From NCBI GenBank assembly GCA_017403265.1, contig JAFQOJ010000028.1:1-32212 (forward strand): 32,212 nucleotides of DNA. The letters run 5' to 3'. The stretch comes from Clostridia bacterium. Its GTDB lineage: Bacteria; Bacillota; Clostridia; Oscillospirales; Acutalibacteraceae. This document shows, piece after piece, positions 189 to 26,270 of this stretch. Positions within the stretch are counted from its first letter, which is position 1, and the number at the start of each line of letters is the position of its first letter. The position numbers and the translations under genes are program-made. The notes under the pieces were generated by a model. That model saw only the letters and a program-made list of their open reading frames with translations, did not search any database and was not told the origin of the DNA.

Positions 189-264
189 GGCACGCTGAAA
201 GGGATTCGAACCCCCGACCCTCTGCTTAGAAGGCAGATGCTCTATCCAACTGAGCTATCAGCGC
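188..264 (-). tRNA. tRNA-Arg (anticodon TCT)
   Basis: A 77-nt tRNA on the minus strand, reading AGA codons. The acceptor stem pairs GCGCTGA with TCAGCGT, the discriminator is G, and CCA is encoded. The D arm begins TAGCTCAGTTGG. The anticodon stem-loop CTGCCTTCTAAGCAG places TCT in the loop, and the T loop TTCGAAT is canonical. The T stem contains two G-U pairs. It has its own promoter upstream and an intrinsic terminator at its 3' end, so it is a single-gene transcript. Confidence 0.96.
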
Positions 265-15153: not shown

Positions 15154-15165
15154 GGTGTGTGCCGT

Positions 15166-16611
15166 ATGGATGTTTTAAGTAAGGAGCTTATCAGGCTCTC
15201 TGAGGAAAATGCCGTCCATAGCGGCGCATTTTCTTTTTTAGAGCTTATGAAAACCGCAGGGGATACAGCTTACAAGATTATATGTGAAAATATAGATGTT
15301 AATGACAAAAAAATTGCAGTAGTATGCGGCAATGGAAACAACGGTGGTGACGGCTTTGTAATAGCGGGCAACCTTAAAAATAAAGGTGTTGACGTTACGG
15401 TTGTAACCCCCTTGGGCGAGCCTATAACCGATTCTGCAAAGCATTATTATTCGCTGCTTTCGGATATAAAAGTTAAAAACGATATTGATGATGGTTATGA
15501 TATTATTATTGATGCGCTTTTCGGTATTGGCTTAAACCGTCCGCTTGAAATTGGCGTTATAGAAATTATCAAAAAAATGAATTCCCAAAACGCGTATAGG
15601 GTTGCTATTGATATTCCATCAGGGATAGAGAGTGATAGCGGTAAAATTTTAGGGGAATGCGTAAATGCTGATTTAACTGTTACCTTTATAGCGCTAAAGC
15701 CTTGCTTTATGTTGCCACCTGCAACTGATTTTACGGGTAAAACTGTAGTAGCGGATATTGGAGTTAAGCCAACCGATTACACTTATAAAACCATTGAAGC
15801 GCCTGATTTACCCCAAAGAAAAAAGAACTCGCACAAAGGTACTTTCGGTACAGCGGCTTTGGTTTGCGGTAGCTACGGTATGGCAGGGGCGGCAATTCTG
15901 TCTGCACGTGCCTGTCTTAGAAGCGGGGTAGGGATTGTAAAGTCTATTATCCCGAAAAGTATTTATAAAATTTTAAGTTGTGCGGTGCCTGAAGCGGTTT
16001 GTGTTATAGAAAAGCAAACCCTAAAGGGTGGTTTTAAAGGAAATATAAATTTACAAAAAGCCTTAGAAAAGGCGAATGCGGTGCTTATTGGATGCGGTAT
16101 CGGTAACAATAATCAAACAGCAAGGCTTGTAAAAAGACTTGTAGAAAACACAAAAATTCCTACAGTTATTGATGCAGATGGAATAAATGCGTTGGTTTCG
16201 AATATAAATGTATTAAAGAAAACTAACGCTCCGATTATTTTAACGCCCCATCCTGCAGAAATGGCGCGTCTTTGCGGTATTTCGGTATCGCAGGTTGAAG
16301 AAAACCGCGTAAATACTGCGGTGAATTTTGCCAAAGAATATAACTGTATTGTAGCGCTAAAGGGCGCTAATACACTTATTGCAACTCCATACGGTGAAGT
16401 TTACTTTAACATTTGCGGTAATAACGGACTTGCTACAGGCGGTAGCGGGGATGTTTTAGCAGGAATAACCGTTTCTTATCTAGCGCAAGGGTTAGAGCCT
16501 TTGACGGCAGTTAAAGCTGCAGTTTATATTCACAGCGCTACTGCTGATAAGGTTGCAAGCATTAAAGGGGAAAGGGCATTACTGCCTAGTGATATAATCG
16601 AAGCCTTATAA
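15166..16611 (+). CDS. nnr: Bifunctional NAD(P)H-hydrate epimerase / dehydratase
   Basis: A 481-aa cytosolic repair enzyme. The N-terminal half (about 1-205) is the epimerase interconverting R- and S-NAD(P)HX, with GNGNNGGDGFV (about 54-64) and IDALFGIGLNR. The C-terminal half is the ADP-dependent dehydratase of the ribokinase fold, with HKGTFGTAALVCGSYGMAGA, DADGIN, LTPHPAEMARL and the active-site loop GLATGGSGDVLAGI. The start is ATG 15166, with AAGGTG 8 nt upstream; the GTG at 15157 overlaps that SD. Its stop codon (16609-16611) lies within the left inverted end of the hairpin element at 16606, so insertion of that element may have set the present C-terminus (SDIIEAL). Confidence 0.95.
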   Translation: MDVLSKELIRLSEENAVHSGAFSFLELMKTAGDTAYKIICENIDVNDKKIAVVCGNGNNGGDGFVIAGNLKNKGVDVTVVTPLGEPITDSAKHYYSLLSDIKVKNDIDDGYDIIIDALFGIGLNRPLEIGVIEIIKKMNSQNAYRVAIDIPSGIESDSGKILGECVNADLTVTFIALKPCFMLPPATDFTGKTVVADIGVKPTDYTYKTIEAPDLPQRKKNSHKGTFGTAALVCGSYGMAGAAILSARACLRSGVGIVKSIIPKSIYKILSCAVPEAVCVIEKQTLKGGFKGNINLQKALEKANAVLIGCGIGNNNQTARLVKRLVENTKIPTVIDADGINALVSNINVLKKTNAPIILTPHPAEMARLCGISVSQVEENRVNTAVNFAKEYNCIVALKGANTLIATPYGEVYFNICGNNGLATGGSGDVLAGITVSYLAQGLEPLTAVKAAVYIHSATADKVASIKGERALLPSDIIEAL

Positions 16612-16816
16612 TGGTTATAGTTAGTCAAAACAGTAAATGAAATTTACTGTTTTGACATGAAATCTCCGATTTCCATGCAAATTTTCGAAGAAAATTTGAC
16701 TATACCCATTGTAATGAATGTTGTGCGCAATTTATTAAAATTAAATTGTGCACAAGCCGATAAAATCGGCTTGTCGAAACGCTTTAAAGCGCTTCGACAA
16801 ACTACAATCATTATAA
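16606..16816. repeat. Six-hairpin intergenic element, copy A
   Basis: A 211-bp element with imperfect inverted ends (TTATAATG ... CATTATAA; about 20 of 25 bases match) and six hairpins in a row: 16624-16656 (14 bp), 16659-16673, 16678-16698 (9 bp), 16725-16751 (9 bp), 16752-16774 (10 bp), 16773-16798 (12 bp, one mismatch). A core without long stems at 16706-16726 begins CCATTGTAATGAATG. It shares architecture, core and right end with copy B at 25452, while most stems differ in sequence but still pair. It encodes no protein. It resembles a non-autonomous mobile repeat or a structured RNA element; I know no named family it matches. Confidence 0.8.
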
Positions 16817-16829
16817 TTAAGGTGATTAT

Positions 16830-17312
16830 TTGAAACGTGTCTTTTCGGTTATATTAGTGTTACTTTTACTTTGTGGTTGCAAAAGCCAAACCAAAATAAC
16901 CCCGTTAAAAACGGGGATTACATTTTCAGCCAATGCTACATATTACAATGAAAGCTATGAATGTGATTGCGATATTCAAAAGAACGGCGATATGACGGTT
17001 GCATTTACCTATCCTACCGAAATTGAAGGGCTAAAGTTTGTTTTTTCTAAAAACGGTGTTTCGGTAAATTTTAATGAAATAGAGTATGTCAGCGATAAAA
17101 TAGTTTTTGAAAATTCGGTAGCAAGCCTTTTGTATGAAGTACTTTCAAAGGATAATACAAAAGTTTATGAACGCGATGATGTATTTTATTTTGAGGGTGT
17201 AAATAATGATTTTGAGTATAAGCTGGAGTTTGGCGCAACGGGGCTTCCTATAAAAATAACTACAAAACCTGATATTGCAAAAATAGAGTTTAAAAATGTT
17301 AAAATAATGTAA
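16830..17312 (+). CDS. Lipoprotein of unknown function
   Basis: A 160-aa predicted lipoprotein. The signal MKRVFSVILVLLLLCGC ends in a lipobox-like LCGC, with Cys17 as lipid site. The mature part is beta-rich, with two further Cys close together (ECDCDIQ), and ends in EFKNVKIM. The fold, with strands such as GITFSANATYYNESYECD, loosely recalls LolA/LppX-type lipid-binding lipoproteins, but I do not recognise a family. The start is TTG at 16830, with AAGGTG 5 nt upstream. No alternative ATG gives a signal peptide. It begins only 14 bp after the hairpin element, which separates it from the nnr gene. Confidence 0.75.
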   Translation: MKRVFSVILVLLLLCGCKSQTKITPLKTGITFSANATYYNESYECDCDIQKNGDMTVAFTYPTEIEGLKFVFSKNGVSVNFNEIEYVSDKIVFENSVASLLYEVLSKDNTKVYERDDVFYFEGVNNDFEYKLEFGATGLPIKITTKPDIAKIEFKNVKIM

Positions 17313-21330: not shown

Positions 21331-21674
21331 TGGTGGAAGTGAGGAGAATCGAACTCCTGTCCAAAAATCTATCCATACGGCTTCTCCGAGCGCAGTCGCC
21401 TATTTACATTCCCTTACAAAGCCGTCAAGCGACCGACTGCTTTGCTTGGTAGTCTCTACTTCATGACAAGGGGAGAGACAGCCTCTTGTTCACGTTCACC
21501 ACTAAATGACGCCTTGCCTTAGCCGTGGTACTCTAAGGTTCGACGAGCCGCCTAATTAGGCAGCTAAAGCAACTTTATTGTTGTTAGTTAATTTTTTATG
21601 CGGTTTTTTTAGCGGTACCGCACCGCTGCTCGCTTCCCGTACTTCAAAATCCCTGTCGAAACCTTTACACTCCC
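21331..21674 (-). ncRNA. ssrA: Transfer-messenger RNA (tmRNA)
   Basis: A 344-nt tmRNA that rescues stalled ribosomes together with SmpB. The acceptor stem pairs GGGAGTG with CACTTCC, the 3' end carries encoded CCA, and the T arm is GGACAGGAGTTCGATTCTCC-like. The 5' part has the usual GGTTTCGACAGGGAT. The tag frame ends GCTTTAGCTGCCTAA, giving VALAA and stop (TAA at 21558-21556). Reading back gives KLTNNNKVALAA. The resume codon is not certain, since the GCA before it is out of frame. A row of pseudoknot-like stems follows the tag. smpB lies 135 bp upstream on the same strand, a common pairing. Confidence 0.96.
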
Positions 21675-23499: not shown

Positions 23500-24428
23500 T
23501 TGTTCCTCCGTATATGTTCTGTCATAGAGCTAGTTAAATTACTGAACAACAGATTCAGGTTTATATTGGTGATAAGAGAAGACTGAAAATCCCCAAGCTC
23601 TTCATAAATACTAAGTAGCGGTTTTGAAAAATACGAATTTTTGGAGTGTCTAATCTTTTTTGCTATCAAGAATTTTAAATCCTTAATAAATTTATCGGCA
23701 TCGATGCGGCTTTTCTGATAGGGAAGAGCAATTTTAAGCATTGTATATCGGTCGCAATCGATAGCAGCTTTTAAAAAGGCTTTGGCATCACTTTCGCTAC
23801 CTTGAGATAAAACACCGTTTAGAACATCAAGCGCTCTGCCAATATTGTTTTTTTCGCTTGTTAAAGCTTCCTTTATAAGCGTTTCTTCAAAATTGGTTTT
23901 AGATTTTATATAATCAAGTGCTACCGAAAGCTCGGGTGTTGTGAGTGATAATGTAACACAACGTGAAATAATAGTATTTAGCAACGCAGATTTGTTTTCG
24001 GCTATTAAAATAAACATAACCGTTTTCGGCGGTTCTTCTAACACCTTTAAAAGTGCGTTTTGGGCGCTTTGATTCATAGTATCGGCGCAGTCAATCAAGA
24101 AAACGCGTTTTAAAGCGCTGTGCGGTATAACAATAGTTTGGTCTCGCAAATCCCTTATTTGCGATACTGAAATATTTTTTTTACCGTCTTCGGGGGCAAT
24201 TACGGTAATATCGGGGTGGGAAGAAATATCTGCCAAGTGGCAATGCTTACAGCTAAGACAGGGCGCATTCTCACTTTCGCAAAGAATGGCTTTAGTCAAA
24301 AAGCTTGCTAAGGTGTGCTTGCCTGTGCCGTATTCGCCTTCAATTAAAATAGCGTGTGGAATACGCTTTGCTTTTATGAAATTTTCAACCGTAACTGCTA
24401 ACTTATCATTTCCTACAATGGAAATCAT
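23496..24428 (-). CDS. holB: DNA polymerase III delta' subunit
   Basis: A 310-aa clamp-loader subunit that helps place the sliding clamp on DNA. The Walker A-like loop is GEYGTGKH (31-38), with His where Thr or Ser normally binds, consistent with delta' subunits that do not hydrolyse ATP. Zinc ligands Cys50, 57, 60 and 63 follow the CX6CX2CX2C pattern. Later come the SQNALLKVLEEPP helix and the arginine-finger-like IISRC. Both ends overlap neighbours by four bases (ATGA with trpS upstream and ricT downstream), a tight translational unit. There is no strong SD before its ATG, so it depends on trpS translation. Confidence 0.96.
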   Translation of the reverse strand: MISIVGNDKLAVTVENFIKAKRIPHAILIEGEYGTGKHTLASFLTKAILCESENAPCLSCKHCHLADISSHPDITVIAPEDGKKNISVSQIRDLRDQTIVIPHSALKRVFLIDCADTMNQSAQNALLKVLEEPPKTVMFILIAENKSALLNTIISRCVTLSLTTPELSVALDYIKSKTNFEETLIKEALTSEKNNIGRALDVLNGVLSQGSESDAKAFLKAAIDCDRYTMLKIALPYQKSRIDADKFIKDLKFLIAKKIRHSKNSYFSKPLLSIYEELGDFQSSLITNINLNLLFSNLTSSMTEHIRRNK

Positions 24429-25435
24429 AAAACGAAACCAACCTTTTTCATAGCCTTAAAGTAGGTTTTACGGGCAACATATTCAGCCTTTTCGGCGCCT
24501 TGCTTGTAAAGTACTTCTAAGGCTTTTTTATCCTTAATAATTTCGTCATACGCGGCCTTTATGGGCGCTAGGGTATCTGCAACAGATTCACCGACTGCTA
24601 TTTTAAATTCGCCGTATCCTTTGCCGCTAAACTCTTTCTCAATTTCGGCAACAGATTTGCCTGTAACTGCCGAGTAGATAGTAATTAGGTTAGAAATACC
24701 CGCTTGCTCTTCACAAAAATGAACATTTGCATTAGAGTCGGTAACGGCACGCTTGAATTTTCTTATAATATCATCCTTGGAGTCCAAAATAGCAACCCAA
24801 GAGTTGAGATTTTCGTCCGATTTGGACATTTTTTTAGTAGGGTCTTGCAGTGACATTACACGCGCGCCGGTTTTGGGGATATAAGCATCGGGCACTGTGA
24901 AAACATCGCCGTAAAGATTATTAAAACGAATAGCAATATCGCGTGCGATTTCAAGGTGCTGTTTTTGGTCGGCGCCTACAGGTACTAAATCAGGCTTATA
25001 AAGTAAAATATCAGCCGCCATAAGCACAGGGTAGGAGAAAAGACCAACATTTACGTTATTTGCATGCTTTGCCGATTTATCCTTAAACTGTGTCATACGA
25101 GACATTTCACCAAACTGTGTATTGCAAGAAAGCAACCAGCTAAGGCAGGCATGCTCGGGCACGTGTGACTGAATAAAAATTGTATTTTTTTGGGGGTCAA
25201 GACCTAAAGCTAAAAGCAATGCGTAGGTGGAATAAATTTGTGCGCGAAGCTTTGTGGGGTCTTGTCTTACAGTTATAGCGTGTAAATCGGCTACAGCAAA
25301 GGTGCAGTCAAACTCCTCTTGCATAGTGCACCAATTTTTAAGCGCGCCTAAATAGTTGCCAAGGGTTAGCATACCGCTTGGCTGTATACAACTTAAAACC
25401 TTCTTTTTTTGTGGGGTTTGTAAAATCTCTGACAT
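24425..25435 (-). CDS. trpS: Tryptophanyl-tRNA synthetase
   Basis: A 336-aa class I synthetase that charges tRNA-Trp in the cytosol. It shows the HIGH-equivalent QPSGMLTLGNYLGAL near the start, ADLHAIT, the tryptophan-binding region SCNTQFGEMSRMTQFKDKS, ADILLYKPDLVPVGADQKQHLE, and the KMSKS loop (TKKMSKSDEN, about residue 207). Length is normal. A GGCGG SD lies about 9 nt before the ATG. It heads a trpS-holB-ricT unit with four-base overlaps. No T-box leader is visible upstream; the space holds the hairpin element copy B instead, so its promoter may lie inside that element or upstream of yfbR. Confidence 0.98.
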   Translation of the reverse strand: MSEILQTPQKKKVLSCIQPSGMLTLGNYLGALKNWCTMQEEFDCTFAVADLHAITVRQDPTKLRAQIYSTYALLLALGLDPQKNTIFIQSHVPEHACLSWLLSCNTQFGEMSRMTQFKDKSAKHANNVNVGLFSYPVLMAADILLYKPDLVPVGADQKQHLEIARDIAIRFNNLYGDVFTVPDAYIPKTGARVMSLQDPTKKMSKSDENLNSWVAILDSKDDIIRKFKRAVTDSNANVHFCEEQAGISNLITIYSAVTGKSVAEIEKEFSGKGYGEFKIAVGESVADTLAPIKAAYDEIIKDKKALEVLYKQGAEKAEYVARKTYFKAMKKVGFVL

Positions 25436-25451: not shown

Positions 25452-25658
25452 AATGATTATAATAGTTAAGGTTAGTCGAAACATATATGTTTCGATGTAA
25501 AATCTTTGATTTTACAACAAATTTTCAAAGAAAATTTGTCCTTATCCATTGCAATGAATGTTGTGCAAAATCAATTCATACGATTTGATTTTGCTATAGC
25601 CACTTAAAAGTGGCTTATCGAAGCGCTCGAAAGCGCTTCGATAAACTACAATCATTAT
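25452..25658. repeat. Six-hairpin intergenic element, copy B
   Basis: A 207-bp relative of the element at 16606, in the same orientation. Hairpins: 25476-25495 (9 bp), 25497-25515 (8 bp), 25518-25538 (9 bp), 25565-25594 (10 bp), 25598-25615 (8 bp), 25617-25642 (11 bp, CGAA loop). The core at 25546-25566 differs from copy A at a single base. The right end AAACTACAATCATTAT is identical in both copies. Stems 1, 2, 4 and 5 differ in sequence from copy A, yet each still pairs. It lies between yfbR and trpS and carries no protein frame. Confidence 0.8.
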
Positions 25659-25697
25659 CTTTGTAATTATACCATAAGTTTAATATTATTACAAGTT

Positions 25698-26270
25698 TTA
25701 ATTAAGCTCATCAAGTGACAATGAAAAACTGTCTAAAAATTCTTCTATAAATATATTGGCTTCAGGGCAGTCAAGCTCGCTGATTGCTTTACGGGTGCTA
25801 ATTTCTGCAACTGCAAATTCGCGGTTGCCCATATTGGATTCTTCAATGCATTTTATAAGCGCCGAAATTTTATCAGCCGCCTTTACAAGACGGGCAATAT
25901 TTGCATCGGGATTATATATCTTTGTAAATTCCGCCTTAAAGTCATCGGGTAAATTATCCAAAAGTCGCTGCTCGGCAACCTTTTCAATATCCTTATAAGC
26001 CTTTTTTATAGTGCAGTTATAGTATTTTATAGGGGTGGGCATATCGCCTGTAATAATTTCTGTAGTGTCGTGATACATACCTGAAACCGCCGTTTTTTCA
26101 GGGCTTACATTACCGCCTAAACGGACATTATTTATAACCGCTAGGGCGTGTGCGATAAAGGCAACTTCAAGCGAATGTTCACTTAAATTTTCGTTCCTTG
26201 TATTTCGCATTAGTCCCCAACGGTAAATGTTTTTCATTCTTGACATCATGGCGTAAAAATGTTTTTTCAT
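25698..26270 (-). CDS. yfbR: HD-domain 5'-deoxynucleotidase, YfbR-like
   Basis: A 190-aa cytosolic HD-domain phosphohydrolase closely resembling E. coli YfbR, which dephosphorylates deoxynucleoside 5'-monophosphates and feeds thymidylate metabolism. The matching blocks are HFYAMMSRMKNIYRWGLMRN, the first metal His32 in ENLSEHSLEVA, the HD pair His67-Asp68 in MYHDTTEIITGD, then PTPIKYYN and later Asp in AADKISALIK. GGAAG lies 7 nt upstream of the ATG. The promoter is interleaved with that of the divergent YfhO gene. trpS lies downstream beyond the hairpin element. Confidence 0.93.
   Translation of the reverse strand: MKKHFYAMMSRMKNIYRWGLMRNTRNENLSEHSLEVAFIAHALAVINNVRLGGNVSPEKTAVSGMYHDTTEIITGDMPTPIKYYNCTIKKAYKDIEKVAEQRLLDNLPDDFKAEFTKIYNPDANIARLVKAADKISALIKCIEESNMGNREFAVAEISTRKAISELDCPEANIFIEEFLDSFSLSLDELN

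Follow-up and report, generated by a model that had tools for sequence, protein, structure and literature searches.

Is a short, strongly folded block between two bacterial genes an RNA, a transcription signal or a piece of mobile DNA? The question is raised by positions 16606-16816 (copy A) of a 32,212-nt stretch from a Clostridia bacterium (assembly GCA_017403265.1, contig JAFQOJ010000028.1), which as a whole is called the window below. An earlier note, made from the sequence alone, had described six consecutive hairpins between imperfect inverted ends in non-coding DNA, and had offered a non-autonomous transposable repeat, a structured RNA and a transcription punctuation element as options. 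The first of these is borne out by further copies and empty sites: the best explanation of the element is a non-autonomous mobile repeat of uncultured Clostridia, similar to miniature inverted-repeat transposable elements (MITEs). That it is a mobile repeat with a structural constraint at the DNA level is held with considerable confidence, and the fold is probably selected as DNA, for the element's own movement.

Two closed domains of three hairpins

Folded as RNA, copy A reaches -83 kcal/mol against a shuffled mean of -33.3 (z -13.0), and copy B, the relative with the same hairpin order that the earlier note had placed near 25452, reaches -74.2 kcal/mol against -33.7 (z -10.9); none of 200 dinucleotide shuffles is as good in either case. 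RNAalifold, applied to an alignment of 94 distinct full-length copies, yields two separate domains, and the alignment fold of 32 diverse copies yields the same two. The two-domain fold is also the minimum of copy A folded as single-stranded DNA, on either strand, while the RNA minimum of copy A alone pairs the outer ends with each other.

For the covariation tests, the 94 copies were thinned to the 32 (less than 86% identity). In these, 96.4% of 2203 cells are paired (87.9% after shuffling), 38 of 69 pairs are doubly changed against a shuffled mean of 17.2, and the double-change cells number 173 against 47.2; none of 500 shuffles reaches any of the five measures, a comparison to be read with kinship in mind, as related copies can beat shuffles without structure. 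Pairing falls to 34-44% when the partners are slid by one to three columns, a control that leans towards the structure, which was derived from the tested copies. The closing stems alone, joining each end with the central core, have 95.5% of their cells paired and 46 double-change cells. For the two outer ends paired with each other the figures are 85.0% and 15, and one such pair is unpaired in 22 of the 32 copies; a six-hairpin array with paired outer ends was dropped as weaker than the two-domain fold.

The element thus consists of two adjacent closed domains of three hairpins, each outer end pairing mainly with the central CATT-NN-AATG core, and its sequence is constrained to form them. The hairpins and inverted ends of the earlier description are present in copy A and again, at about 25452-25660, in copy B, whereas the pairing of the outer ends with one another is inferior to that with the core. 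The observation that stems change yet stay paired extends to the 32 copies, and the covariation excess agrees with the proposed selection on structure. Either a lack of further copies or a lack of compensatory excess would have spoken against that proposal; further copies and an excess were found, and it survived.

Both ends carry the same sharp 25-nt consensus, TATAATGRTTRTRGTTWGTCGAAAC, in a logo of 70 copies. Compared by eye, the core CATT-GT-AATG resembles the right outer end joined to the left outer end, CATT-AT-AATG. Most end pairs in the fetched loci lie 199-205 or 207-216 bp apart, end to end, and rare shorter forms measure 56, 151 and 161 bp; two 56-bp forms of the host (L016, L020) consist of both ends alone.

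Copies, empty sites and spread

The host genome (G000; 1.70 Mb, 74 contigs, 87% complete) contains nine long matches to copy A, including A and B, with identities of 70-100%, as well as short pieces. A match at E 0.001 or better is present in 32 of the 61 genomes of the genus that were searched, host included, and outside the genus in three of 79 other genomes (G073, G079, and G100; the 79 counted by hand). A named genome collection gave 51 stretches with the exact right end, all from records titled as Clostridia, Oscillospiraceae, Ruminococcaceae or uncultured bacterium; 36 titles name the gut of goat, sheep, deer or buffalo, and the other 15 name no such sample. The viral contigs, phages and plasmids searched contained no element match, and no account of this repeat came up in a literature search within indexed abstracts and some passages.

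The site of copy A is empty in eight relatives (L091-L097, L100), where the next gene starts within a few tens of bases; its right flank was aligned by BLAST in five of them, the other three being judged by eye. A copy in G052 (L025) can be compared with an empty site in G027 across flanks that are 85-86% identical: the empty site reads TTATAA, and the filled one has TTATAA on both sides. The open reading frame (ORF) of 335 aa at this place in G027, with a Phage_integrase domain (tyrosine recombinase), is broken at the element in G052. Another copy, present in G027 and absent from G064, G068, and G052, occupies a TATAAT that is similar to a -10 box and might be read as a promoter. At least one insertion is old, since one site is still occupied in both G013 (L032) and G058 (L052); a comparison of these two loci with L107 is too diverged for reading the junction.

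Fifteen pairs of copies are 97-99.5% identical, and 14 of them stand at unrelated places (L171 and L030 share a site), which suggests recent activity. In G079, which belongs to another genus, seven contigs break off within copies. The copies of this genome and of G100, from another family, match copy A at 84% identity, which speaks for horizontal spread: within the genus, the gene regions beside copy A that give matches of 650 nt or more reach only 64-75% identity.

Another copy or end directly adjoins some of the copies, at times with a shared AT (L038:784-987 and 1473-1673, L041, L022, L261:292-578); the ends of the repeat thus seem to serve as insertion targets too.

Target site and its duplication

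The target bases bear on whether the element could be a MITE that belongs to an ordinary IS630 transposon of the Tc1/mariner type, with a TA duplication and an incidental fold. Its AT-rich target, terminal repeats, short duplication and size near that of RUP, as the latter is described in passages of PMC2229807, would suit such an origin. For the duplication, 104 rebuilt empty sites were matched against all fetched loci. The flanks of eight copies were matched by sequence that is not itself an element copy; the rows L065 and L041, which looked element-like, were excluded by eye. At six of these eight copies AT (or TATA) outscores TA, with a tie at L060 and TA best at L031, and the AT model is gapless within 16 nt of the junction at five (L037, L051, L025, L087, and L197). 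L087 is informative because its target differs from TTATAA, while L051 and L142 are related genes rather than clear orthologues. The G013 empty site of copy A is two bases shorter than the AT prediction, and AT still scores above TA (128 to 122). In the logo, the inner A-T is 94-100% conserved, against 76% for T and 71% for A at the next base out.

An early reading of the duplication as TA was dropped after these scores. The TA duplication that marks IS630/Tc1-mariner (RUP-like) elements is thus not supported by these eight copies taken together, and since covarying internal domains are not needed for such an element either, an IS630 origin is unlikely. A symmetric duplication, AT or TATA, was found, on few sites. 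Insertion at AT-rich targets, preferably TT-AT-AA, with a short symmetric duplication that is AT by the logo, is well supported, though by few sites.

Order of changes in the stems

Paired changes might also arise with no structural selection, as a by-product of template switching between the arms (quasi-palindrome correction), a mutational process expected to balance G-U and A-C departures from pairing. One-step correction predicts the reverse of what close copies show: changed pairs are one-sided in 12 of 13 cases at 96-100% identity between copies, and in 55 of 58 at 92-96%. Double changes make up 3-8% of the changed pairs between close copies and 36% (Watson-Crick) at 75-82% identity. Moreover, stems differ less than unpaired sites at all distances, 2 to 5 times less per site (0.029 against 0.140 differences per site at 92-96% identity). 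Because one side changes first and double changes only accumulate with distance, template switching is rejected as quite improbable; the order of changes agrees with selection that was followed by compensation, not with one arm being copied onto the other in a single step.

Mispairs, strands and gene context

RNA that works on one strand tolerates G-U pairs. One-step departures from a Watson-Crick pair were therefore counted as G-U or A-C, both in the element (94 copies, thinned to 72 at less than 93% identity) and in transfer-messenger RNA (tmRNA) of the same genus (30, thinned to 22). The element has 106 G-U and 88 A-C deviants, and tmRNA 57 and 10 (Fisher p 4.8e-6, a descriptive value, as the cells are not independent). 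A single element pair holds 23 G-U and 4 A-C, and dropping it leaves 83 to 84. Counted as pairs with at least one deviant, G-U against A-C comes to 22 and 9 for tmRNA and to 38 and 36 for the element. A strand-specific tolerance of G-U is thus missing in the 72 copies, as compared with the 22 tmRNAs. A first control with 14 tRNAs (G-U 19, A-C 7) was discarded, as its stem assignment was off and 34 of 238 cells were neither standard pairs nor A-C.

With G-U and A-C in balance, the fold resembles that of paired DNA, or of an RNA made from both strands; G-U mispairs being hardly better tolerated than A-C ones, the constraint would act on DNA. On this test, structured RNA was dropped as the principal reading. 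A structured non-coding RNA family (a trans-acting small RNA or a cis-regulatory leader), multi-copy by chance, would be in keeping with the strong covariation, the RNA fold of copy A and the flanking genes, which are start-facing in 70 cases and end-facing in 48. Against it stand, besides the mispair counts, the occurrence in tandem gaps in either orientation (+/+ 20, -/- 10), the insertion into a gene and the absence from orthologous sites. A scan of the window against Rfam at gathering score gave only tmRNA, the RNA that served as control, and a tRNA, and nothing at copies A and B, in line with the earlier remark that no named family fits, and the best of 14 rows of a permissive scan has E 0.13. 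Altogether, an RNA family is very unlikely.

Context was classed by simple ORF calling, with gaps in the same loci as baseline: 59 of the 94 copies could be placed (30 tandem, 20 divergent, and 9 convergent; 20 are too far from genes and 15 at edges), and the 227 baseline gaps are 148 tandem, 50 divergent and 29 convergent. Transcription punctuation kept by selection, i.e., a bidirectional terminator or processing element, is highly implausible: several short-loop hairpins, a median distance of 30.5 nt from gene 3' ends and the site still occupied in both G013 and G058 agree with it, but copies have no clear preference for convergent gaps (9 of 59 against 29 of 227), take divergent ones in 20 of 59 cases against 50 of 227, and vary in presence between relatives. 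Of the options offered at the outset, RNA on one strand is thus contradicted and punctuation is weak at best. Comparing G-U and A-C with an RNA of the same genome is a cheap test, which could sort folded repeats into RNA and DNA cases.

Candidate movers

In the first loci fetched, the nearest opposite end within 5 kb was determined; only one spacing, 736 bp, is larger than a normal copy, and it corresponds to two neighbouring copies. Regions around lone ends (sets of 18, 20, and 20, some being complete copies) resembled truncated copies, contig ends or short chance matches. The reversed control of the end pattern gave no match in four genomes of each of two end searches, and a 15-nt end pattern gave chance matches of up to 11 per genome by its own control.

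In G100 (contig C17), a 1.49-kb unit (L261:504-1996) has an AAA_14/DUF4143 ORF (585-1820) flanked by a left part of the element on one side, a right half on the other and end repeats on both; directly upstream lies a copy of a diverged subfamily (292-505). The unit has no second example among the loci examined, its gene is not known to be a transposase, and it is a lead only. RAYT-like ORFs occur in only three loci of the 1.18 Mb fetched, duplicates included. They are small (L142:7045-7593, L174:4236-4721, and L051:1710-2024), and by motif we take them to be RAYT/IS200-type transposases; the one in L142 has no Pfam match. In L051, the element stands inside an ORF related to these.

Solo right halves were also encountered, two with a recognisable inner end (L047, L041) and two more degraded (L062, L187). 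They suggest that the full element arose when two ancestral half-elements of ~100 bp fused in inverted orientation.

A different, GC-rich multi-hairpin repeat of ~185 bp is present at L194, ~2131-2315 (G068:C52), with some twenty matches in G068; as many of these are 94-100% identical, it was probably mobile recently.

Features of copies A and B

Copy A lies between an ORF at 15157-16611 and another that starts at 16830, and is non-coding save for its first bases, TTATAA, which hold the stop codon of the former. Copy B is non-coding as well, and its neighbours are ORFs at 24425-25435 (-) and 25698-26270 (-).

Table 1. Parts of the two copies, and Rfam matches, with their positions in the window (P, closing stem; HP, hairpin)
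Feature	Position	Strand	Remark
Copy A	16606..16816	+	full-length, long (~210 bp) class; outer TTATAA/TTATAA ends include the duplicated target bases
Left terminal inverted repeat, copy A	16607..16631	+	consensus TATAATGRTTRTRGTTWGTCGAAAC (logo, 70 copies); 24-nt match with 1 mismatch
Right terminal inverted repeat, copy A	16791..16815	-	consensus TATAATGRTTRTRGTTWGTCGAAAC on the - strand (logo); 24-nt match with 1 mismatch
Domain 1, copy A	16609..16711	+	P1 closes HP1, HP2, and HP3
P1, copy A	16609-16620 with 16700-16711	+	closing stem
HP1, copy A	16624-16656	+	domain 1 hairpin
HP2, copy A	16658-16674	+	domain 1 hairpin
HP3, copy A	16677-16699	+	domain 1 hairpin
Core CATT-GT-AATG, copy A	16707..16716	+	junction between domains 1 and 2
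Domain 2, copy A	16713..16812	+	P2 closes HP4, HP5, and HP6
P2, copy A	16713-16724 with 16801-16812	+	closing stem
HP4, copy A	16725-16751	+	domain 2 hairpin
HP5, copy A	16755-16771	+	domain 2 hairpin
HP6, copy A	16772-16799	+	domain 2 hairpin
Copy B	25457..25658	+	short (~202 bp) class, same two domains
P1, copy B	25460-25471 with 25540-25551	+	
P2, copy B	25553-25564 with 25645-25656	+	
tmRNA	21331-21674	-	Rfam match
tRNA gene	191-264	-	Rfam match

Interpretation

From the covariation in 32 copies, the slow stems and a G-U bias that is missing in 72 copies, it seems that a complex fold is preserved at the DNA level. Such a constraint could act when replication or excision exposes single strands or cruciforms, and its most economical reason would be a mobilising recombinase that recognises a copy only if it can fold, this enzyme being presumably supplied in trans. 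We infer both a role of the fold in transposition and an AT crossover. A more detailed scheme is offered tentatively, as one possibility that is itself doubtful: the substrate of transposition might be folded single-stranded DNA, whose two cloverleaf domains, made of half-elements in inverted arrangement, would be recognised by their shape. The recombinase concerned would, like serine recombinases, join a crossover of two bases, AT (ends CATT-AT-AATG, target TT-AT-AA), and the internal CATT-GC/GT-AATG core might be a silenced copy of the same junction.

Several observations weigh against a mobile repeat kept as DNA or against parts of this picture. Equal transcription of both strands of a repeat would balance G-U and A-C as well. 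Among the ends examined in seven genomes, where not every lone end was fetched, no transposase and no autonomous copy with these ends was found; the origin from two halves is only suggested, the solo right halves being few; and many of the records are draft metagenome-assembled genomes whose contigs often break in copies. As for the duplication, AT (2 bp) and TATA (4 bp) predict an identical empty sequence, so that only the logo favours AT. Its margin over TA is small at L197 (75 to 74), L051 (60 to 56) and L087 (159 to 155), and the junction alignments of L060 and L031 are messy, the former scoring best with TATA and the latter with TA. The site of copy A itself (L001) needs a gap of one to two bases, and in comparison with L222 and L221 a model with no duplication scores equally or slightly better. 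Finally, the flanks of 66 copies, under 640 settings of boundary and length, contain no clear excess of direct repeats of at least 3 bp, and longer target duplications were dropped for this reason.

The fold of the mobile repeat raises a question that can be tested, namely whether a mobile element must fold as single-stranded DNA in order to move.

Relation to known repeats

Linkage of a RAYT gene to the repeats, which characterizes REP/BIME systems, does not hold for the element, with RAYT-like ORFs in only three of the fetched loci. REPs have no target duplication; the ends of IS200/IS605-type elements are not mutual inverted repeats, and their insertion leaves no duplication. REP/BIME systems with RAYT transposases, the subject of PMC2817692 and PMC3733652, are similar to the element in their hairpins of opposite orientations and many intergenic copies, but REPs measure 20-40 bp, whereas the present element is bounded by terminal repeats of 25 bp and shows a short duplication. 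IS200/IS605-type elements, the subject of PMC6006769, share with it folded single-stranded ends as possible recognition sites. Repeats that fold as stem-loops have been catalogued as families in Clostridium and other Firmicutes, among other groups, and in the passages concerned (PMC2267715) cluster counts are given for cultured species.

CIR elements of Caulobacter and Brucella resemble the element in having two paired arms joined by a linker; as described in PMC2229807, these arms are two long inverted repeats, whereas each arm of the element is a closed three-hairpin domain, and the ends of the whole element are inverted repeats of each other.

Several properties that define MITEs in general are present: the element is short, has no coding capacity, and combines dispersed copies with terminal inverted repeats, insertion polymorphism and, on few sites, a target duplication. 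The bacterial MITEs RUP, Correia/NEMIS, ERIC and others, as treated in passages of PMC2229807 and of the review PMC10969869, are likewise gene-less and strongly base-paired, ~100-200 bp long, with terminal inverted repeats, AT-rich intergenic sites and target duplication. In the same passages, MITEs are mostly single long stem-loops, and their fold is discussed for transcripts. Unlike these, the ends of the present element pair with a central core to give two covarying three-hairpin domains, and AT fits its duplication better than TA.
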